Positions 50,062-60,780 of a stretch of 64,000 nt of DNA are shown here, piece by piece. The notes beneath the pieces were generated by a model, which worked only from the letters and a program-made list of their open reading frames with translations, did no database searches and had not been told where the DNA came from. Both the position numbers and the translations under genes were made by a program. Every line of letters starts with the position of its first letter. The stretch's first letter is position 1. This DNA is from Spirochaetota bacterium (GTDB lineage: Bacteria; Spirochaetota; UBA4802; UBA5368), in the NCBI GenBank assembly GCA_004297825.1, contig SCSX01000036.1, positions 62,001 through 126,000 of the forward strand. Direction: 5' to 3'.

Positions 50062-52350
50062 ATGGACGACCTGAATGCAAAAATCCTGAAGCTCGAGAAA
50101 ATCGCGCTCATCTCGCTTGCGGCTATATGCCTTATCGGCGGGATCATGTTCGGTTACGTGACGGCGCAGGTGAAGAATTTTTCCGGGATTAAGAATCTGC
50201 GCCAGTTTCAGCCGAGCCTTCCCTCGAAGCTCTACGACGTGAACGGGGAGCAGATATCCGAGCTCTTCCTCGAAAAGCGCGACCTGGTTCCCTACGAGAA
50301 GCTCCCGAAAAATCTGATCAACGCCTTCGTGGCCGCGGAGGACAGGGACTTTTACCGCCACTTTGGCATCAACCCGGCAGCGATCGTGCGCGCGATGGGG
50401 AAAAACCTGCTCGCGGGGCGCGTCGTGCAGGGGGGCTCCACGATCACCCAGCAGCTCGCCAAGCGCCTGTTCACCAGTCAGAAGCGTACCATCGCGCGCA
50501 AGGCGATCGAGGCCATACTCGCGCTGCAGATAGAAAAGAAGTTCTCGAAGGAAGAGATCCTCGAGATGTATTTCAACCAGATTTTCCTGGGACGGGGCTG
50601 CTACGGAATCTCCGCGGCGGCGCACCTGTTTTTCAATAAGGACGTCGCGTACCTCACCGTGGGGGAAAGCTCGGTGCTTGCCGCGCTTCCCTCGGCCCCC
50701 GGAAAATACTCGCCCCTCATCAACACGCATGAATCGTTCAAAAAGCACTGGGACACCCTGTCCCGCATGGTGGACGCGGGCTACCTGACCCAGGAAAAGG
50801 CGGAAAAGGTATATGCCGAATTCTGGCCCAAGTACGTCGACTCGATCAAAACCGAATACACCACGAAGACCGCCTACACCGGGAACCAGGACCTCGCGCC
50901 CTACTTCACCGACTACGTGCGGCAGATACTCACGGCGCGCTACGGAAGGGACGCGGTGTACAGCGAGGGCTTCAAGGTCTACACCACGCTAAACTTGAAA
51001 AGGCAGGAAATCGCTCAGCGCTATTTCCAGTCGGGGGTCGAGCGGCAGAACGAAATTTCCGAGCAGGCGAACAAGTTCGGGGAAGGCGCCGTCGACCGCG
51101 GGCTATTCGGCGCATATGGGGTGCTGTCGAGCGTATTCAGCCTGCCCCCCGTCCTCGTGAAGAACGACACCGAGACCATCTTCAAGAAGACCATGGTGGA
51201 CGAGCTCCTGGACTCGATCGACGTGCTCGCCCTTCTCACCGGCGCCGATGCGCCGCAGAAGACCATAGAAACATTCCGGTCCATAATATCGGGCATCTCC
51301 TCGACACTCAAGGTGGAGGGCGCCTTCATCGCGGTCGAGCCGCAGACGGGGCACATCACCTCCATGATCGGGGGATCGGGCTTCTCGGTGGACAACCAGT
51401 ATAACCGTGCCGTCCAGGCGCGCCGCCAGCCGGGCTCCGCGTTTAAGCCTTTCGTGTATGGCTCCGGCATCGAGGGCAAGATCATCCATCCCGGCACTAC
51501 GCTTCCCGACGCGCCCATAGTGGACATCGATTCGAGCGGGGAGACCTGGGCGCCCTCGAATTACGAGGGCAACTTCTCGGGGATGGTGAGCCTTTCGACG
51601 GCCCTCGCCGCTTCCATCAACGTGATCTCGGTGCGCATCTACGACCTCGTGGGCGCGGACCGCATCATCCAGTACGCGGCCAAGATGATGAAGGTCCCCG
51701 AATCGCGGTTCACGCCCGCCCCGGCGCTCGCGCTGGGATCGTCCGAGGTGACGCCGTTCGAGCTCTGCACGGGCTTCGCGATCTATGCCAACAGGGGAAG
51801 GGACGTGTTCCCCTACGCGGTCCGTTACGTCACCGACAGGGACGGCAACGAGCTTGCCAATATCGAAGAGGAAGTCGGCAACATCGTCGCCACCAAGGAA
51901 ATGGACGGGAGCATACAGGTCATCCCCGAATGGGTGGCCTACATCATGACCACCATGATGAAGGGGGTGATCGAGGGCGGGACCGCGACCGAGGCGATCC
52001 GCGGCCAGGCCGCCTTCAGCAAGGAGTGCGCGGGAAAAACCGGGACCACGTCGAACTGGTCGGACGCGTGGTTCTGCGGGTTCACGACCGACGTGTGCGC
52101 CGTGGTGTGGTTCGGCTACGACCGCGCGTTCATGTCGCTCGGGAAGCACCAGGCCGGGTCCGGGGTCGCGGCGCCGGTATGGGGCAATTATATGCGCGAA
52201 ATCTATAACGGGATGAAGGACCCGCATTTTAGCCCCCAGCCCGCCGGAACGGATTATGCGCCCAGCTACGGCGGGGCCGGCGAATTCAAGAAAATGAAGT
52301 CGGTGCTCGACGTTTATATGGAAAAGGAAGGGCTGAAGGAGAAACAGTGA
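50062..52350 (+). CDS. Class A penicillin-binding protein (PBP1A), second copy
   Basis: A 762-residue bifunctional peptidoglycan synthase. The TM anchor is LISLAAICLIGGIMFGYVTA. The GT51 domain has E-D-R-D-F-Y-R-H-F-G and GGSTITQQLAKRLF; the transpeptidase domain has G-S-A-F-K (catalytic Ser), S-I-N and K-T-G-T-T-S-N-W-S-D-A-W. As in the first copy, the interdomain insert is only ~100 residues and helical. The two proteins share domain order but differ in the C-terminal Cys cluster, which this copy lacks. Ribosome binding site AAGGA 11 bases upstream. Confidence 0.93.
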   Translation: MDDLNAKILKLEKIALISLAAICLIGGIMFGYVTAQVKNFSGIKNLRQFQPSLPSKLYDVNGEQISELFLEKRDLVPYEKLPKNLINAFVAAEDRDFYRHFGINPAAIVRAMGKNLLAGRVVQGGSTITQQLAKRLFTSQKRTIARKAIEAILALQIEKKFSKEEILEMYFNQIFLGRGCYGISAAAHLFFNKDVAYLTVGESSVLAALPSAPGKYSPLINTHESFKKHWDTLSRMVDAGYLTQEKAEKVYAEFWPKYVDSIKTEYTTKTAYTGNQDLAPYFTDYVRQILTARYGRDAVYSEGFKVYTTLNLKRQEIAQRYFQSGVERQNEISEQANKFGEGAVDRGLFGAYGVLSSVFSLPPVLVKNDTETIFKKTMVDELLDSIDVLALLTGADAPQKTIETFRSIISGISSTLKVEGAFIAVEPQTGHITSMIGGSGFSVDNQYNRAVQARRQPGSAFKPFVYGSGIEGKIIHPGTTLPDAPIVDIDSSGETWAPSNYEGNFSGMVSLSTALAASINVISVRIYDLVGADRIIQYAAKMMKVPESRFTPAPALALGSSEVTPFELCTGFAIYANRGRDVFPYAVRYVTDRDGNELANIEEEVGNIVATKEMDGSIQVIPEWVAYIMTTMMKGVIEGGTATEAIRGQAAFSKECAGKTGTTSNWSDAWFCGFTTDVCAVVWFGYDRAFMSLGKHQAGSGVAAPVWGNYMREIYNGMKDPHFSPQPAGTDYAPSYGGAGEFKKMKSVLDVYMEKEGLKEKQ

Positions 52351-52456: not shown

Positions 52457-52936
52457 ATGTTCAAGGTCGGTGATAAGATCGTGTATCCGATGCACGGTGT
52501 GGGAAAAATAGAGGCGGTCGAGAAAAAGACCGTGCTGAAGCAGAGGGACAATTTTTACATAATTACCATCATCAACAGCGGGATGAAGGTGATGATTCCC
52601 GTCGAGAAGGCAGAGGCGATCGGGATACGGGCAATCATCTCAAAACGCGAGGTTTCAAAGGTCCTGCTGCTGCTGAAAAAGAAAGAGGTTATCACCGAGG
52701 ATGACTGGAAGCTCCGCTACCAGGGCAATATCGACAAGGTAAAAAGCGGGTCGATATACGAGGTGAGCGAGGTCGCGAGAGACCTGTACCGCCGCAGCAA
52801 GGAAAAGGAACTCTCGATCATGGAGCGCAAGCTCTATGAAAACGCCTACCAACTCGTGATTCACGAGATAGCCCTGGCGAAGGACGTGTCCATCGAAGAG
52901 GCGAGCAACATAGTATCGGAAGCCCTTTCCGCCTAG
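52457..52936 (+). CDS. carD: CarD/CdnL-family transcription regulator
   Basis: A 159-residue protein of the CarD family, which binds RNA polymerase beta and stabilises open complexes at housekeeping promoters. The N-terminal RNA-polymerase-interacting Tudor-like domain ([16 protein letters not shown]) is followed by a helical DNA-binding domain ([40 protein letters not shown]). GGAG lies upstream of the ATG. A sigma70 promoter precedes it and a terminator follows. It is next to a PIN/TRAM gene, an arrangement known in several phyla. Confidence 0.93.
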
Positions 52937-53060: not shown

Positions 53061-54065
53061 ATGGTTACAATTTTAAGAGCATTTTTCATCTTTTCGAGCA
53101 CCGTTTTCACGGGTTGGTATTTTACCGGTTATTCATGGCAGGCGGCGCTTATAGGCGCCGTTGTCGCCGCGGTCGCGGCGCTGGCGCTCATCATCGTGAT
53201 CGAGTACATGACGCACACGGTTTCACCGCGGGTCATCCTCGCGGCCGCGCTGGGGCTCCTGGCCGGGCTGGTGATCGGTCATTTCCTCGCGATCGCGTTC
53301 ACCCAGATTCCCCTGGGATTGTCCGATACGGCGGCATCGGTGGCGCGCGCGCTCCTGTACCACGTCGTGGGCTTCGCCGTGATGCTCTTCTTCGTCATCA
53401 AGAGCGACGATATGCGGTTCCTGGACAAGCTTATCGCGGACCGGTCGGGGGAAGAGGGGGAGCGCGGGGCCAGTTACAAGATCCTGGACACGAGCGTGAT
53501 CATTGACGGCCGTATCGCCGATATCTGCGACTCAGGGTTCATCGAGGGAATACTGGTGATCCCGAACTTCGTGCTGAACGAGCTCCAGATGATCGCCGAT
53601 TCCGCCGACTCCATCAAGCGGAACCGCGGGCGCAGGGGGCTGGACATCCTGAACAAGATGCAGAAGGACCAGTCCATCATGGTCAAGATTTCGGACATGG
53701 ACTTCGCGGAGCTTTCGGAGGTTGACGCGAAGCTCGTGAAGCTCGCGAAGATAATGAAAGCGATCATCATCACCAACGATTTCAACCTGAACAAGGTCGC
53801 CGAGTTCCACGGCGTGCGCGTGCTCAACATCAACCAGCTCTCCAATGCCCTGAAGCCCATCGTGCTGCCCGGCGAGGAGATGCGCGTTGCCCTCATCAAG
53901 GAGGGAAAGGATCCCAACCAGGCGATCGGCTACCTGGACGACGGTACCATGGTCGTGGTGGAAAACGGCAGGCGCCGAATGGGCAACGAGGTCGAGGTGA
54001 CGGTGACCTCGGTGTTGCAGACGACCGCGGGGAGAATGATCTTTGCCCGGGTCGCGCAGGACTAG
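53061..54065 (+). CDS. Membrane-anchored PIN/TRAM domain protein
   Basis: A 334-residue protein with AAGGAG before the ATG. Four N-terminal TM helices (about 2-120) are followed by a cytoplasmic PIN ribonuclease domain (about 140-255). This has acidic residues in [12 protein letters not shown] and T-N-D-F-N-L, the D/E set of PIN nucleases. A TRAM RNA-binding domain (about 270-330; [10 protein letters not shown]) is at the C-terminus. The family is often called YacL. It overlaps the next gene by 23 bases. Confidence 0.9.
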
Positions 54066-54666
54066 GCCGCGCGTCCTCGCGCTCTACGGCAGCCCCAGGA
54101 AAAAGGGACACAGCGCGCGCATTCACGACGCGTTCCTGGCCCCCCTGGCGGCCGTCGCATCGGTGAAACGAGTGCGCGTTCAGGGGCTCAACGTAAGCCC
54201 CTGCACCGCGTGCGGGCATTGTCGCGGGGGGCTTAGCTGCGTGTTCGACGACGACATGAGCGCGCTGTATGAAGAAATCGAGCGCGCACGGCTTATAAGT
54301 ATATCGGCCCCCGTATATTTTTCGGGGCTTCCGGGCGCCCTCAAGTGCGTGATCGACCGGTTCCAGGTTCTGTGGGAGGCGCGCGAACGCGGCGAGAAGC
54401 GTCCGGTGCCGGGAGAGGGGTTTTTTATAAGCGTTTCCGGCGCGGAATACCGCAACGTGTTTCTTCCCTCGGTCACGACGATCCGGCATTTTTTCAATTC
54501 GCTGGGTATCGCTTACCGCGAAAAGAATTTCCTGCTCTTTCCCGCCGTCGAGGAAAAGTGGAAGGGACAGCTTCCCGGCGAATGGCTCACGCGCGCGAGT
54601 GCCGCGGGGGAGCGGTACGCGCGCGCCCTCCTGTCCGATACCCCGGGTTCCGCACCCTCCTCATAA
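54043..54666 (+). CDS. NADPH-dependent FMN reductase/flavodoxin-fold protein
   Basis: A 207-residue flavoprotein starting with TTG at 54043 (23-base overlap with the PIN/TRAM gene; a GGGAG lies upstream). Motifs: [13 protein letters not shown] (FMN phosphate loop), C-T-A-C-G-H-C (Cys pair plus) and [11 protein letters not shown] (FMN isoalloxazine). It resembles iron-sulfur flavoproteins but has only a short cysteine cluster. Likely an NAD(P)H-dependent reductase of quinones, metals or nitro-compounds. Confidence 0.85.
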
Positions 54667-54825: not shown

Positions 54826-56100
54826 ATGAAAATCATCGTTACCGTCACCCTGCAGGTAAAAAGGGGAAGCCTGCCCTATATCGTGGGGGAGATCCACGCA
54901 CGGGGCTGCGAGCTGCAGCGAAGCGTGCGCAGGGAATGCACCCAGGACAGCGAGGTGTTCGATCTCGAGATAATCGCCGGGGACAATCAGGCGCTCAATG
55001 GCCTCATCGAGGAGATAACCCAGCAGAAATCGGGTTCCAGGCTCATACAGATCGAAAACCTGCTCGAGGACAGCATCGTCGGGGGGATGCTTCGCGTGTC
55101 GGGAAAGCTCGCGATCGAATCCCCCGACGATTACGACACGAAGCTTCTCGGGGCGACGGGACTGCTGTTCGACAAGATATCCCAGGGGAGGGGAACGGAA
55201 TATTCCGGCATAGCGCGCTCGGTGCTCTTCCTGTCGGCGATGAAATCGCGCGCGGATGCGCAGGCGGACCGGCTGTATCAGCGGCACGCGGGGCTCGAGA
55301 GGGATTGTGTCATATTCAACCTCTTTACGGGAATGAACGCCTACCCGCTCATCGTACGCTATGTCCAGATGGAAGACCTTATCCGCACCATCCAGGCGGT
55401 GTCCCCGGGATTCGCGGCGGTGCGCGTAGTCGAGGCGGAGGAGATGGACGATGTGACCGATTTCGACCAGTTGCGCGACTGTATCGACGTCCCGGTCCTC
55501 TCCGCCGCGACCGACGAGATGCCCCTGTGCATGCTCGCGGAAATCATCACCATGGTGGAAAAAAGCCGGATGGAGTTCTATGAATGCAACCTGGGCATGA
55601 TAGGCATCACCGCGAGCGCGCTCAGGCTTACGCGCATGCTGCTTTCGCTGGGTTGTCCACGGGTGCTGGGTTACGACAACAACGAAAAGCTCATGATGCT
55701 GTTCGAGAAATCGGGCGGACTCGCGACCACGCCGGAGAATATCTTCAATAATTCCGACGTCGTGATACTGAACAAGAACCATTTCACCGTGGACGACCTG
55801 CACCGGATACGCAGCGGGCAGAAATTCCTCTCCCTCATAGAGGAGGACCTTCTCGAGAAAAATATCATCGCCGACAAAGGGATTCGCACCCACGTGACGC
55901 GCGACCAGTTGGACACCTCCCTGGTTTTTCCCGGCCTCTTGCGCGGCATGATCAAGAGCCGCCGCGAGTCGTACGATAACGATACGCTGATAGAGCTCGC
56001 GCGAAGGCTTAAAAATATCCGCGCCAAGGAAGGGAATGTGTATACCCCGATGGGCGGGATCCACGCGAGGATCGAGGAGATCGTGTGCGCGGAGCTTTGA
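54826..56100 (+). CDS. ACT-domain protein with degenerate malic-enzyme-like fold
   Basis: 424 residues from the ATG at 54826 (GGAAGG upstream; the frame to 54742 is unsupported). Residues 1-75 look like an ACT domain (KIIVTVTLQVKRG, SLPYIVGEIHARGCE). Residues ~115-220 follow the N-terminal fold of malic enzymes (DCVIFNLFTGMNAYPLIVRY, LIRTIQAVSPGF). From about 245 a Rossmann-like segment appears (GMIGITASALRLTRMLLSLG, then V-L-G-Y-D-N-N). The glycine-rich dinucleotide loop and the catalytic Lys/Tyr of malic enzyme are not evident, so it may be a sensor or regulatory relative rather than an enzyme. Function is not assigned. Confidence 0.62.
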   Translation: MKIIVTVTLQVKRGSLPYIVGEIHARGCELQRSVRRECTQDSEVFDLEIIAGDNQALNGLIEEITQQKSGSRLIQIENLLEDSIVGGMLRVSGKLAIESPDDYDTKLLGATGLLFDKISQGRGTEYSGIARSVLFLSAMKSRADAQADRLYQRHAGLERDCVIFNLFTGMNAYPLIVRYVQMEDLIRTIQAVSPGFAAVRVVEAEEMDDVTDFDQLRDCIDVPVLSAATDEMPLCMLAEIITMVEKSRMEFYECNLGMIGITASALRLTRMLLSLGCPRVLGYDNNEKLMMLFEKSGGLATTPENIFNNSDVVILNKNHFTVDDLHRIRSGQKFLSLIEEDLLEKNIIADKGIRTHVTRDQLDTSLVFPGLLRGMIKSRRESYDNDTLIELARRLKNIRAKEGNVYTPMGGIHARIEEIVCAEL

Positions 56101-56101
56101 A

Positions 56102-56875
56102 TCAGGGCGCCGCGATGACTGTCCAGCGCAGGCTGTCATAGCTGAATATGCGGCACCGGCGCGATTTGCCCGCCTGGAGTATCGAGCCGTGCGTGCACAG
56201 CGCCTCGGGCGAGGCCCTGTCGTCGGTGATGAGCGGGTTCAGGACGAGCTCCTTTCGTGAATCGACCCTTACGATGCCGTCTGCGCTGGCGATGGTCGTA
56301 TCGGCCCCCGCCACCCCGAGGAGTCTTTCCATGTCGACCTGCAGGATGAAAACCCCTTTGATCTCCCCGCCTTGAAAAACATTTCCCGCGATGAGCATGC
56401 GGAAAAGGCCCGAGCTCCGGGGAAACTCGGTCACGTCCTCGACATGCAGCGGCGTCTTCCTGTTCGAGAAGCATCGTCCCAGGGGACTCTCCGGTTTGAA
56501 GTGCCGGATGTTTTTGGCGAACAGGTCGTCGTTGTCCCTGGTGTACACGACCATGCCGTGTGCGTTGATGAGGATGAAGTCCGAATAATTGCCCTGCGTG
56601 ACCGCGCGTATCATCTCCGTGATGCCCTCGCGCTCGAGGAGGTAGAACCGGTCGCCCCCCTCGTTCATTTTCTGCAGATGCGTGAGATTGTCTATGAGCG
56701 CGCGTTTCTCGATGACCGCGGTCGCATGCGCCATGTCCTGTTCGCAGAGCGCGAAGAAATCCCTCAACGGGTCTCCCGAGCCGGAATCGTCGGGCCTGGC
56801 GGTGTGCGCCCCCGTCCCGCACGCGCATTGGACCGCGAGTATCGCAAGCGCAAGGACTCGTGCGGGTTTATTCAT
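56102..56875 (-). CDS. Cache-type sensory lipoprotein
   Basis: A 257-residue lipoprotein (MNKPARVLALAILAVQC, lipobox A-V-Q-C, further Cys19) with GGAGG upstream. Helix ~45-80 (a long Ala/Glu-rich helix ending in LIDNLTHLQKMNEG) is followed by a PAS/Cache-like alpha/beta domain (YSDFILINAHGMVVYTRDND, GVFILQVDMERLLGVAG). This is the extracytoplasmic part of many receptors, but no TM or signalling domain follows. It may be a soluble or membrane-tethered ligand sensor that works with a separate receptor. Its stop touches that of the ACT-domain gene. Confidence 0.75.
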   Translation of the reverse strand: MNKPARVLALAILAVQCACGTGAHTARPDDSGSGDPLRDFFALCEQDMAHATAVIEKRALIDNLTHLQKMNEGGDRFYLLEREGITEMIRAVTQGNYSDFILINAHGMVVYTRDNDDLFAKNIRHFKPESPLGRCFSNRKTPLHVEDVTEFPRSSGLFRMLIAGNVFQGGEIKGVFILQVDMERLLGVAGADTTIASADGIVRVDSRKELVLNPLITDDRASPEALCTHGSILQAGKSRRCRIFSYDSLRWTVIAAP

Positions 56876-56954: not shown

Positions 56955-59900
56955 CTAATAGAGTATTTTCTCAACCCCCTTTTTCTTCACGCTCCGCATA
57001 AATTGTTTCTTCCAGCCGATTCCCAGGAAGGTTTCCGCGGCGTACACGACGAGCGCGCGCGCCGTCACCCTGGTTCCCTCGTCGATCCGGGAAAGGCCCT
57101 GGACGCAACTGGGGCATGTCGTGAGCACCGTGCAGCGGCGGCCCGGGCTTTCGCGCACGATGCCCGCCGCCTTGCGTTCCCTGAGAAGGTTCGATATCTC
57201 AGGGGTCGAGAGCGCGAGCGTGCCCCCCTCGCCGCAGCAGCGGGGCACCATCACCGGCGATGCGCCGAATAGCGACTCGAATGTTTTGGACGCCCCCAGG
57301 TTCTTGAGCGGGGTATGACAGGGCTCGTGGTAGAGAATTTTCAGGCCGTTCCTTACGGACGAGTACAATCCCTCCGACGCGAGGTATTCGTTGATATCCA
57401 TGAGCGCGGCGCCGTTGAAAATGTTTTCTATTTCATATTTCTCGAGCATCTCGAAACAGGTGCCGCAGGAGACGAGCACGTGCCGGATTTCCATGTAGCC
57501 GAGCATGTCGGCGATACGGTGCATCATCACGCGGTTCTCATAGCTTTTCATATCGGCGGCGGCGGTCCTGCCGTTGGCCAGGAGCGGGTACCCGCAGCAG
57601 AGGTACTCGGGAAGGATCACGATGCGCACACCCGCGTGGTAGAGCAGCGCGATGGTCGCGATGCTTATCTCCGGGAACATGCGCTCGGATCCGCACCCGG
57701 GGAAGTAGACGACGCTCCCCTTTACGGGGACGTCGGGATTTTCGAACACGCAGAAGGTCCCGGAGCCCTTGATGCCCAGGAGCTCGCGGAGCGTCCTGTC
57801 CCCCGAGCGCGGGAGCCGGCCCTTGAGCATCGCGGTCGTACGCGGCGCGAGCGCGCCCGCGAGGGCGCGCACCGGTTTCACGGCATAGTGCGCCGTTCTC
57901 TGCGCCGCATAGCCCGCCTTGAGAAGCGCGAGCCGGAAGAACTTGTTGGCGTAATAGCCCCTGCGCCTCAGGTAGTAGAGCGTGAGCCAGGTGACGAGCT
58001 TGAACTTGGCCTTCCGGCGCTGGAACATGAGATCGCGGATGTCGAGCGTGATGTTCCCGAAGTCGATCTTCACGGGGCAGGGTACGCTGCACTTGTGGCA
58101 CATGGTGCAGTGGTCGGAAATCTCCCTGAGCTTCTTGAAATGCCGGAAAGAGAGCGACTTGGACGTCTGCGCGTCGTAGAGCACGGCCTCGGTGATGAGC
58201 GCGACGCCCAGTATCTTGTTGCGCGGGTTATAGAACATGGTGCCGCGGGGGTAGTGCGTGTTGCAGGTCGATTTGCACTTGCCGCATCTCACGCACGCCG
58301 CGATGGACGCGGACAGGCTTTCGATGTCGGCGGCCTTGAGGATGAACGCCTCGAGCTCGAGCAGGTTGAAGGACGGCGTGTATACCATGTGCAGGGGGAA
58401 ATCGGGATCGAGCTTGCCGGGGTTGAACAGGTTCCCGGGATCCGCATCGCGCTTGTACGCGGCATACGCGTCAAGCACCTCGCGTCCGATATACTTGAGT
58501 TTCGTGAGACCGATCCCGTGCTCGCCGGACACGACCCCGCCCAGCCGGACCGCCTCCCGCATGACGGCGCCCGCCGTCTCGTCGGCCTCGCGCATCATGA
58601 GGTAGTCGTTCGAATGAACGGGTATGTTGACGTGCACGTTCCCGTCGCCCGCGTGCATGTGCGTGGCAATGATGATCCGGCGCGTACGCTCCGCGGCCGC
58701 GAGGGTCTCGAATTCGCGGATGAGCTCGGCGTAGCCGTGAAAGGATTTCGGGAACGCGCCCAGGACGTCTTCTTCGACGGAGACGAGTATCTGCCCGTCC
58801 CGGTCCTTATCCGGAAGGCCGCCCTCAAGTCCCGCGAGACAGCCGCGGCACCGGTCCCTGATCTCCGTTACCCGGTGCGCGAAGGCGTCCAGTTTAGCCT
58901 CGGGGGCGCCGCTCTTTCCCGACCTTTTGCACGTGAGAAGGAACTCGACGATGCGCTCCGTGAGGCGCAGGTCGTTGGCGATCTCCTTCTCGATGTTCAG
59001 CCGCTCGATATAGTCGGCGAATTCGGGGAGCCGCTCGAGGGGTATGACCACGTCCTCGTTAAGCTTGAACGCGTTCGTGTGGCGCGCGATGGCCCCCAGG
59101 TTCTTGCGGTCCTTCCAGAAGAGCGCGCCCTCCGCGTCGCTTTCCGCGATGAAGCCCTCCGTGTTGTAGGGCCGCACGAGGTCCAGAACGTGCGTTCCCG
59201 CCTTATCGAGCGCGTCCCTGTCATTTCCCTCGACGTCGACCAGGAGCACGGCCTTTGGTATTTCCGTGCGCGCGGACTTGTTGCGGTAATTTATCGCGAG
59301 CACGTATTTCTCGTCGAAGTGCTCCAGCGCGGTGAGGAAGGCCGTCCCGCCGTCCCGGAACGCCGCGGTGATGTCGACGATTGCGCGCGCGGCGTTGACG
59401 AGATCGCTGCCGAAAAATTCAAGGCAGATCGTCTTCCTGAACGCGAACGGGCGATAGAGCACGAAGCACGCCGATACGATGATTCCGTCTCCCCCCTCTT
59501 TCTGCACGCCCGGAAGTCCGCCCAGCGCCTTGTTCGTGATGTCCTTGCCGAGCCCCTTGCGGCGGACGTCGGTCCCGGAGAGGGTGATCGTTTTTAAAAC
59601 CTCGCCGGACCCTGATCCCGCGTCGCGCACGTCGAAGACCACCAGGTCCCCCGGCTCGATCTTGCGGTGTGGATGATCGCGCCGCGTCACCTCGAGCGTC
59701 CTCCCGGCGGCGTCCACGATCAGGAAGGAATAGAGGTTGTCTATCGCGGTGCCCCACATTACGCATTTCTTCCCCCCCGCGTTCTCGGCGATGTTGCCGC
59801 CTATCGTGGAGGCCCACGCCGAGGTGGGATCGGTGGCGAAGATATAATCGTGGCGGGCGCAATACTCGATAACGTCGTCGGTGACGGCGCCGGCCTCGAC

Positions 59901-60617
59901 CCGGACCACGGGGACTTCCGCGCCGCCGGACGTGACGGTCTGGATGCCCAGGACGCGGTCGAGCTTTTCCATGTTGAGGACCAGAGTATTACGCATAACG
60001 GGAACGGCGCCCCCGGTAAGCCCCGTGCCGCCGCCCCGGGGAATGAGGGAGAGCCCCAGCCGCCACGCGGCGAGGACGATTCCCGGCACCTCTCCCGCCG
60101 AATCGGGGTAGGCGATCGCCGCGGGATATTCGACCCGCCAGTCCGTCGCGTCGGTCGCGTGGGCCACCTTGTGGATGGCGGTGAAATGCACGTTCGACCG
60201 CGCGGTCTCCCGCCCCAGCGCCCGCAGGGCCCTGGCCCGGAAACGCGATTCGGCGGCGAAGCGTCCGAAAAACTCCCCCTGGAGGACGCGGGTCTTTTCG
60301 ACCATGCGCTCCACGAGCGGGTTTCCCCCGGAGCCGCGCGCGATGATGGAGAGCCGCGCTGCGTGGAGATTCTCGAGGCGGCGAAGCTTTTTCCGGTTTT
60401 CCAGGAGGTCGTTGAATATGTACGGGTTGCGGTCGATGATGAAAATATCGCCGATCATCTCGAAGAGCAGCTTCGCGCTGCGCCCCGTCACGCGTTTCGC
60501 GCGCAGGCTCTCGAGGATATCGAGCATCTCCGAGTCGAAATACCTGAGGATTATTTCCCGGTCCGAAAACGATGTATAGTTATAGGGAATTTCCCTGAAT
60601 CGAAAATCCTTCTTCAT
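56955..60617 (-). CDS. Fused FAD-linked oxidoreductase and Fe-S protein (D-lactate/glycolate dehydrogenase type)
   Basis: A 1220-residue flavoprotein (ATG at 60617 with GCGGAGG upstream; longer frames are rejected). An N-terminal ~170-residue extension is unassigned. The FAD-binding domain has P-R-G-G-G-T-G-L-T-G-G-A-V-P-V, and the FAD-linked oxidase C-terminal domain includes A-T-H-M-H-A-G-D-G-N-V-H and GEHGIGLTKL. The C-terminal part has C-V-R-C-G-K-C-K-S-T-C and C-T-M-C-H-K-C-S-V-P-C (two [4Fe-4S] sites), then two CCG domains (YLCCGYPL; RCCGEGGTLAL). This is the fusion known for D-2-hydroxyacid dehydrogenases (GlcD+GlcF-like). Substrate (lactate, glycolate or related) is not determined. 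Confidence 0.9.
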   Translation of the reverse strand: MKKDFRFREIPYNYTSFSDREIILRYFDSEMLDILESLRAKRVTGRSAKLLFEMIGDIFIIDRNPYIFNDLLENRKKLRRLENLHAARLSIIARGSGGNPLVERMVEKTRVLQGEFFGRFAAESRFRARALRALGRETARSNVHFTAIHKVAHATDATDWRVEYPAAIAYPDSAGEVPGIVLAAWRLGLSLIPRGGGTGLTGGAVPVMRNTLVLNMEKLDRVLGIQTVTSGGAEVPVVRVEAGAVTDDVIEYCARHDYIFATDPTSAWASTIGGNIAENAGGKKCVMWGTAIDNLYSFLIVDAAGRTLEVTRRDHPHRKIEPGDLVVFDVRDAGSGSGEVLKTITLSGTDVRRKGLGKDITNKALGGLPGVQKEGGDGIIVSACFVLYRPFAFRKTICLEFFGSDLVNAARAIVDITAAFRDGGTAFLTALEHFDEKYVLAINYRNKSARTEIPKAVLLVDVEGNDRDALDKAGTHVLDLVRPYNTEGFIAESDAEGALFWKDRKNLGAIARHTNAFKLNEDVVIPLERLPEFADYIERLNIEKEIANDLRLTERIVEFLLTCKRSGKSGAPEAKLDAFAHRVTEIRDRCRGCLAGLEGGLPDKDRDGQILVSVEEDVLGAFPKSFHGYAELIREFETLAAAERTRRIIIATHMHAGDGNVHVNIPVHSNDYLMMREADETAGAVMREAVRLGGVVSGEHGIGLTKLKYIGREVLDAYAAYKRDADPGNLFNPGKLDPDFPLHMVYTPSFNLLELEAFILKAADIESLSASIAACVRCGKCKSTCNTHYPRGTMFYNPRNKILGVALITEAVLYDAQTSKSLSFRHFKKLREISDHCTMCHKCSVPCPVKIDFGNITLDIRDLMFQRRKAKFKLVTWLTLYYLRRRGYYANKFFRLALLKAGYAAQRTAHYAVKPVRALAGALAPRTTAMLKGRLPRSGDRTLRELLGIKGSGTFCVFENPDVPVKGSVVYFPGCGSERMFPEISIATIALLYHAGVRIVILPEYLCCGYPLLANGRTAAADMKSYENRVMMHRIADMLGYMEIRHVLVSCGTCFEMLEKYEIENIFNGAALMDINEYLASEGLYSSVRNGLKILYHEPCHTPLKNLGASKTFESLFGASPVMVPRCCGEGGTLALSTPEISNLLRERKAAGIVRESPGRRCTVLTTCPSCVQGLSRIDEGTRVTARALVVYAAETFLGIGWKKQFMRSVKKKGVEKILY

Positions 60618-60780
60618 GATCCTCCGCATGGGTCCGCGTATGATGCGCACAATATAGCACACGATTGCAAGGTGCGGTGCGGTTTGGCAAGAAAATTTAC
60701 GGTGCGGCGTGCCGGCATTCGGGGCGTTGCGGGAGGGCTACGCGAAGGAGTTCGGGCGGGGCCGATACTCTCGAAGGCGG

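Follow-up and report, generated by a model that had tools for sequence, protein, structure and literature searches.

Malic enzymes belong to textbook central metabolism. The solved small bacterial and archaeal examples (PF00390 and PF03949; 1ww8, 1vl6 and 2a9f) have an intact active site and no N-terminal ACT domain; other malic enzymes do carry such a domain (CDD name ACT_MalLac-Enz). The MaeB malic enzymes possess an inactive phosphotransacetylase domain and are inhibited by acetyl-CoA (PMC4207490). Searches of the open-licence literature turned up no account of a pseudoenzyme descended from a malic enzyme and comparable to the one considered below.

The gene under study lies in a 64,000-nucleotide stretch of DNA from a Spirochaetota bacterium, the whole of which is referred to as the window. 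The alignments described here show a malic-enzyme homologue without the enzyme's catalytic equipment, retained with a new conserved site. The features of the gene and its neighbours are collected in Table 1. The list of open reading frames puts the start further upstream, at a GTG (54742). This is unlikely to be the true start, because Met is found at the position of the ATG at 54826 in 39 of 40 aligned family rows (the window counted), the one other row (L070) having Val.

Table 1. Location of the gene, its domains and conserved sites, and the neighbouring genes in the window
Feature	Position	Strand	Basis or comment
Gene for ACT plus malic-enzyme-fold protein, 424 residues	54826..56100	+	ATG at 54826; stop ends at 56100
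ACT-type domain, residues 1–82, predicted beta-alpha-beta-beta-alpha-beta	54826..55071	+	AlphaFold2 model, fold matches, profile alignment to ACT-malic enzymes
Malic-enzyme-fold domain, residues 87–424	55084..56097	+	VIA, Foldseek, phmmer
Asp160 codon, at the catalytic Lys position (MEGK to ERD)	55303..55305	+	D in 39/40 rows; K in 12/12 active enzymes
Arg200 codon, adjoining the lost metal ligands (NLED)	55423..55425	+	R in 38/40 rows; 9/9 of second clade
Asp230-Glu231 codons, aligned with H-G in the metal motif HDDQHG	55513..55518	+	D230 in 37/40 rows
Altered dinucleotide loop GMIGITASALR, residues 257–267	55594..55626	+	Second Gly replaced in 40/40
Stretch among the best conserved of the family, residues 281–311 (LGYD...FE..GGLATT.ENI..N.D)	55666..55758	+	Highest information per column
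Class A penicillin-binding protein (PBP1A; transglycosylase and transpeptidase)	50062..52350	+	Pfam; upstream in 35/41 loci
CarD	52457..52936	+	Pfam; 35/41 loci
PIN/TRAM protein	53061..54065	+	Pfam; 35/41 loci
NADPH-dependent FMN reductase-like protein, listed start TTG (putative)	54043..54666	+	Pfam; beside the gene in 25/41 loci
Cache-domain-like lipoprotein, 257 residues, convergent	56102..56875	-	Pfam dCache_1, E 6.8e-5, 23 bits (cut-off 45)

Homology to malic enzymes and the ACT-type domain

A phmmer search of PDB sequences with the window protein (E up to 10) returned nine rows, all nine of them malic enzymes. The best match is 1ww8 (E 1.7e-6, residues 157–277), spanning IFNLFTGMNAYP; a second, short match lies at the C-terminal FPGLLRG motif. 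A profile of the 40-row family reached E 1.5e-14 in the PDB (2a9f), and profile–profile comparison (hhalign) with eight active ACT-malic enzymes gave a probability of 99.9% and E 4e-36, the alignment taking in 418 columns that start in the ACT region and run on to the C-terminus. The initial annotation had pointed to malic-enzyme-style segments, IFNLFTGMNAYP among them, and to a Rossmann region; the phmmer, profile and profile–profile results place this similarity above chance, and the profile check against malic enzymes that it recommended comes out positive. In Pfam, the window protein has no family above cut-off and no match to PF00390 or PF03949 at E up to 10; amongst the 40 members, PF03949 is found in one (E 0.0094), and no member matches PF00390 with an E of 0.01 or less. 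Weak matches to 2-Hacid_dh_C occur in nine of the 40 and are read as a generic Rossmann resemblance. In NCBIfam, the window protein gives two weak rows, the first being a malic enzyme model at E 0.021, far under cut-off.

The fold was predicted with AlphaFold2 from an alignment of three family sequences, from which malic enzymes were absent. Using this full-length model, whose mean pLDDT is only 59, VIA retrieved 1vl6_A (Z 22.3, rmsd 4.2, 293 residues, model range 88–424) and Foldseek the malic enzyme 2dvm_D (E 7.9e-12), so that structure comparison gave the malic fold and not an unrelated one. Chance similarity to malic enzymes is ruled out by the phmmer, family profile, Foldseek, VIA and hhalign results taken together.

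The N-terminal ACT domain claimed in the initial annotation needs closer consideration. Residues 1–83 modelled alone (AlphaFold2) reach a pLDDT of 86 with a beta-alpha-beta-beta-alpha-beta topology, and VIA ranks residues 351–438 of homoserine dehydrogenase first for them (Z 11.6), followed at 11.4 by a putative glycine cleavage repressor and at 11.0 by NikR. Ribosomal protein S6 also reaches Z 10.8, and the first Foldseek row is a designed protein. The assignment therefore rests on the fold together with the alignment to ACT-malic enzymes, the ACT region falling within the full-length hhalign match. Pfam finds no ACT domain in the window protein or in the 40 family members alike, and when only the ACT part served as the profile, every PDB row was at chance level (best E 0.38). 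The overall description as an ACT domain joined to a malic enzyme that has lost its catalytic residues is one on which the sequence profiles, the fold prediction made without malic enzymes and the family alignment agree.

It had also been proposed that the protein evolved from an enzyme, and it does align across its whole length with active ACT-malic enzymes, including one that its own genome encodes. On these sequence comparisons, derivation from a malic enzyme is supported, and the ancestor was probably of the ACT-bearing type.

The former active site

Nine positions invariant in 12/12 active enzymes were counted in 40 aligned family members. They comprise catalytic, metal, NAD-loop and late Asn positions, whose roles we take to be those given in the malic enzyme literature. 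The 12 active rows are a selection from the active malic-enzyme loci found, a duplicate row (L101) having been dropped; the family rows leave out the cut copies of G034 (L068; split across two contigs) and G026 (truncated by a contig end). Six of the nine positions are lost in all 40 members. None is kept in 27 members, including that of the window, one is kept in 12, and two in a single member. The Tyr of YTPGV, present in every active row, is replaced throughout by L, V, I or F, and the Lys of MEGK is likewise kept in 0/40 (D in 39, A in one). The metal carboxylates, namely E and D of LED and the second D of HDD, are kept in 0, 2 and 3 of the 40, and no member has all three; the third is E in 21/40, and the window protein has V, E and A at these positions. 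In the GxGxxG loop, the first Gly is found in 40/40 and the second in 0/40 (D, N, T, E or S instead). Of the late Asn residues, that of NPxPE is kept in 0/40 (an alignment gap in 39), the first of NN in 9/40 and the second in none.

These counts go further than the initial annotation, which had reported that the catalytic Lys and the NAD glycine loop were missing. The Lys is indeed gone and the loop is altered at its second Gly, with the first retained; the losses also extend to the Tyr, the metal-binding residues and two of the late Asn. A search of the family alignment for clear catalytic residues thus found no member keeping more than two of the nine. Homology over the whole length could be taken to indicate a divergent malic enzyme that still works; with Tyr and Lys in 0/40 and a complete metal site in 0/40, the catalytic columns rule this out, and we regard it as scarcely credible.

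The old site has not simply been emptied. Besides Asp160, Arg200 and Asp230 (Table 1), near-invariant residues of the family are Pro233 (39/40), Glu287 (37/40) and Asn309 (38/40), and Glu294, Thr301, Asn305, Leu281, Gly282 and Asp311 occur in 40/40. Glu158 is also found in all 40 rows and is present in the enzymes too. Residue 231 is E or D in the 22/22 family rows used for the tree (see below), E in 9/9 of a second dead clade, and G in 19/19 active enzymes. The highest mean information of the family lies in the Rossmann part, residues 251–315, at 2.77 bits per column, compared with 1.94 for the ACT part. The word 'degenerate' used in the initial annotation says too little, since the old site has not worn away and carries new near-invariant residues across the order.

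It is possible that the malic pocket has been rebuilt for a different reaction, carried out by way of Asp160, Arg200, Asp230/Glu231 and the Rossmann edge. The charged residues that are near-invariant at old active-site positions would suit such a new enzyme, as would the location of the greatest conservation at the Rossmann edge and the adjoining FMN reductase-like gene in 25/41 loci. Against this, catalytic Tyr and Lys are absent, the metal site is incomplete and the dinucleotide loop is altered in 40/40, and there is no neighbouring pathway gene hinting at a substrate. We consider a new enzyme rather unlikely, yet it is a serious rival to the regulatory reading developed below.

Loss of catalytic residues is also what would be expected of a decaying pseudogene. 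There are, however, no internal stops in any row of the family search (59 genomes), the gene is present in 42/46 genomes of the order, and the new near-invariant residues would have to be accounted for. Where dN/dS (YN00) was computable, in 10 of 28 pairs tried (the window pair not among them), it was 0.041–0.128, and purifying selection on the gene is shown in those pairs. Comparison of the window gene with its nearest relative (72% identity) gave pN/pS 0.27. A pseudogene is ruled out by the wide presence, the low dN/dS in the computed pairs and the new near-invariant residues, and the chance that decay is the explanation is minute. With catalytic residues lost and the gene maintained by selection, the protein fits the definition of a pseudoenzyme in these respects.

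Genomic setting, distribution and relation to true malic enzymes

The order PBP1A, CarD, PIN/TRAM protein and then the ACT/malic-fold gene is found in 35/41 loci. One of the six exceptions lies at a contig end (L034), three belong to family f4 (L041, L044 and L046), one to f3 (L070), and one has none of the set within 3 kb (L058); in the three f4 loci and the f3 locus the gene sits apart from the CarD operon. The position is operon-like: across 35 loci, the median distance to the closest upstream member of the set is 23 bases, with extremes of -4 and 545. Because it is 159 bases in the window and reaches 545 elsewhere, co-transcription is not certain.

The convergent Cache-like lipoprotein gene is found in 34/41 loci, at a distance of 0.6–3.4 kb in four of these. 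A lipobox-like Cys16 is invariant in 19/19 aligned sequences, and Pfam finds no output domain in the protein. The gene stays beside ours in L046 and L070, whose PIN/TRAM gene is on another contig; in G011 and G013 the two are on different contigs. Among the 46 genomes of the order, 38 have both the Cache protein and the family and three have neither (Fisher p 0.009, relatedness ignored); four have the family alone (G010, G015, G023 and G044) and one the Cache protein alone (G038). The Cache protein is thus found in 39/46 genomes of the order, and in 0/13 other genomes of the phylum at E 1e-20. The PIN/TRAM protein is uninformative with respect to co-occurrence because it is present in 46/46. 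Direct contact between the ACT/malic-fold protein and the Cache lipoprotein is unlikely, as the latter is encoded on the other strand and is probably outside the cytoplasm. Beyond the lipoprotein gene, at 56955–60662 on the minus strand of the window, is an ORF of 1235 residues that, on reading its sequence, resembles a fusion of an FAD-linked oxidase with an Fe-S module; a related ORF occurs near the gene in 7/41 loci.

Matches to the protein were found in 44 of the 59 genomes searched (its own included), but the matching proteins of G047 and G055 are true malic enzymes. In the order, the family is missing from G014, G018, G027 and G038, and one copy was seen in each of the 42 bearers. Two named relatives, from one scan that picks up close relatives only, are Spirochaetes MAGs. 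The family profile, run on 392 genomes of the phylum, also picks up active enzymes and the second dead clade, a more distant one. The latter (family code f34; L132–L140) comprises nine genomes of the 18 f34 genomes with any match, and hhalign aligns it to the family at E 2e-43; there is a further f34 match in G164 (433 residues, E 7e-23). Trees of 50 rows (22 of the 40 family rows, nine of the second clade and 19 active) place the two dead clades on one side of a branch with support 100/99, and the same is obtained with the catalytic columns removed. This fits a single origin of both, provided that the root lies among the active enzymes, and long branches may inflate the grouping. An alternative in which the family alone groups with the ACT enzymes of the C92 type (see below) is retained by the AU test (p 0.07). 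In the second-clade and exceptional loci, neighbours recognized by sequence reading include CsgG/DUF4384-like, lipoprotein, diacylglycerol kinase-like and HisD-like genes, and these contexts give no functional clue.

The genome of the window encodes an active-looking ACT-malic enzyme on contig C92 (G000:C92:40638-41861; L002:1465-2766), 24% identical to the window protein, in which Pfam finds the malic and Malic_M domains above cut-off and ACT slightly below. Regulation of an active enzyme by an inactive paralogue is a familiar pattern, and the presence of this enzyme might suggest that our protein serves the true malic enzyme of the cell as a regulatory subunit or acts as its decoy. PF03949 (Malic_M), however, matches in 13/46 genomes of the order, and is without a match in 31/42 bearers of the family, or 19/28 of the bearers that are at least 90% complete; across the 46 genomes, malic enzyme and family show no association (Fisher p 0.57). 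An obligate subunit is ruled out by this co-occurrence pattern, and the subunit or decoy reading as a whole is largely refuted and very improbable.

Proposed function and comparison with known systems

The protein is most likely a repurposed ligand-binding pseudoenzyme. More specifically, we propose, with a probability of roughly 0.55, that it is a malic-enzyme descendant rebuilt as a cytoplasmic ligand-binding regulator, without malic-enzyme chemistry. The ACT domain and the location beside CarD make regulation the most likely role; counting against it, conservation is lower in the ACT part than at the Rossmann edge, and the ACT part taken by itself lacks a clear sequence match. In this scheme, a malic enzyme that was probably already ACT-bearing would have lost its chemistry. 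The ACT domain would bind a small effector, probably an amino acid, and in this sense the amino-acid-responsive regulatory role put forward in the initial annotation may be correct. The former metal-and-Lys pocket (Asp160, Arg200 and Asp230/Glu231) and the Rossmann edge, with Asp284, Glu287, Glu294, Thr301 and Asn305, would bind a different ligand, with no metal or NAD chemistry. A partner would then receive the ligand state; plausible candidates are a product of the CarD, PIN/TRAM and PBP1A operon, or the process served by the Cache lipoprotein.

A bolder version treats the two dead lineages of the phylum as a single old and hitherto undescribed family in which a malic enzyme turned into a metal-free sensor with two inputs. 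The ACT domain would read an amino acid and the Asp160-Arg200-Glu231 pocket a second metabolite or nucleotide; the output might be CarD-dependent transcription or peptidoglycan synthesis, in conjunction with a Cache lipoprotein sensing the cell's surroundings. We put this forward as speculation that is distinctly unlikely to hold. The protein is of interest as a family missed by Pfam and kept order-wide, with residues of the rebuilt site common to a second lineage, and as a clean example of how the pocket of an enzyme can be remodelled to serve a new purpose. Because it sits at a conserved place downstream of CarD and PBP1A, the idea that metabolite sensing is linked to growth can be put to the test.

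Amongst described proteins, the malic enzymes with an ACT domain, of which the C92 paralogue is one, have the same domain order, a similar length and the 418-column alignment, and C92 has a 'VLGxDxNE..M' stretch in common with the window protein. They differ in that the catalytic, metal and NAD-loop residues, lost here, are intact in the nine ACT enzymes compared. The small bacterial and archaeal malic enzymes share the predicted fold (VIA Z 20–22 with the model), but their active site is intact in 10/10 non-ACT rows, and the Pfam families that define them fail on the window protein. The second dead clade has Asp160, Arg200, Glu231 and Glu294 in 9/9 each, as does the family for the most part; it differs in keeping the second loop Gly in 6/9, in having Asp230 in 1/9 and in its neighbouring genes. 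Finally, there is a resemblance to MaeB, in that an enzyme domain no longer does its chemistry. In MaeB the dead phosphotransacetylase domain is the sensor. MaeB pairs a working malic enzyme with a dead added domain, whereas in the window protein it is the malic enzyme itself that appears to be dead.
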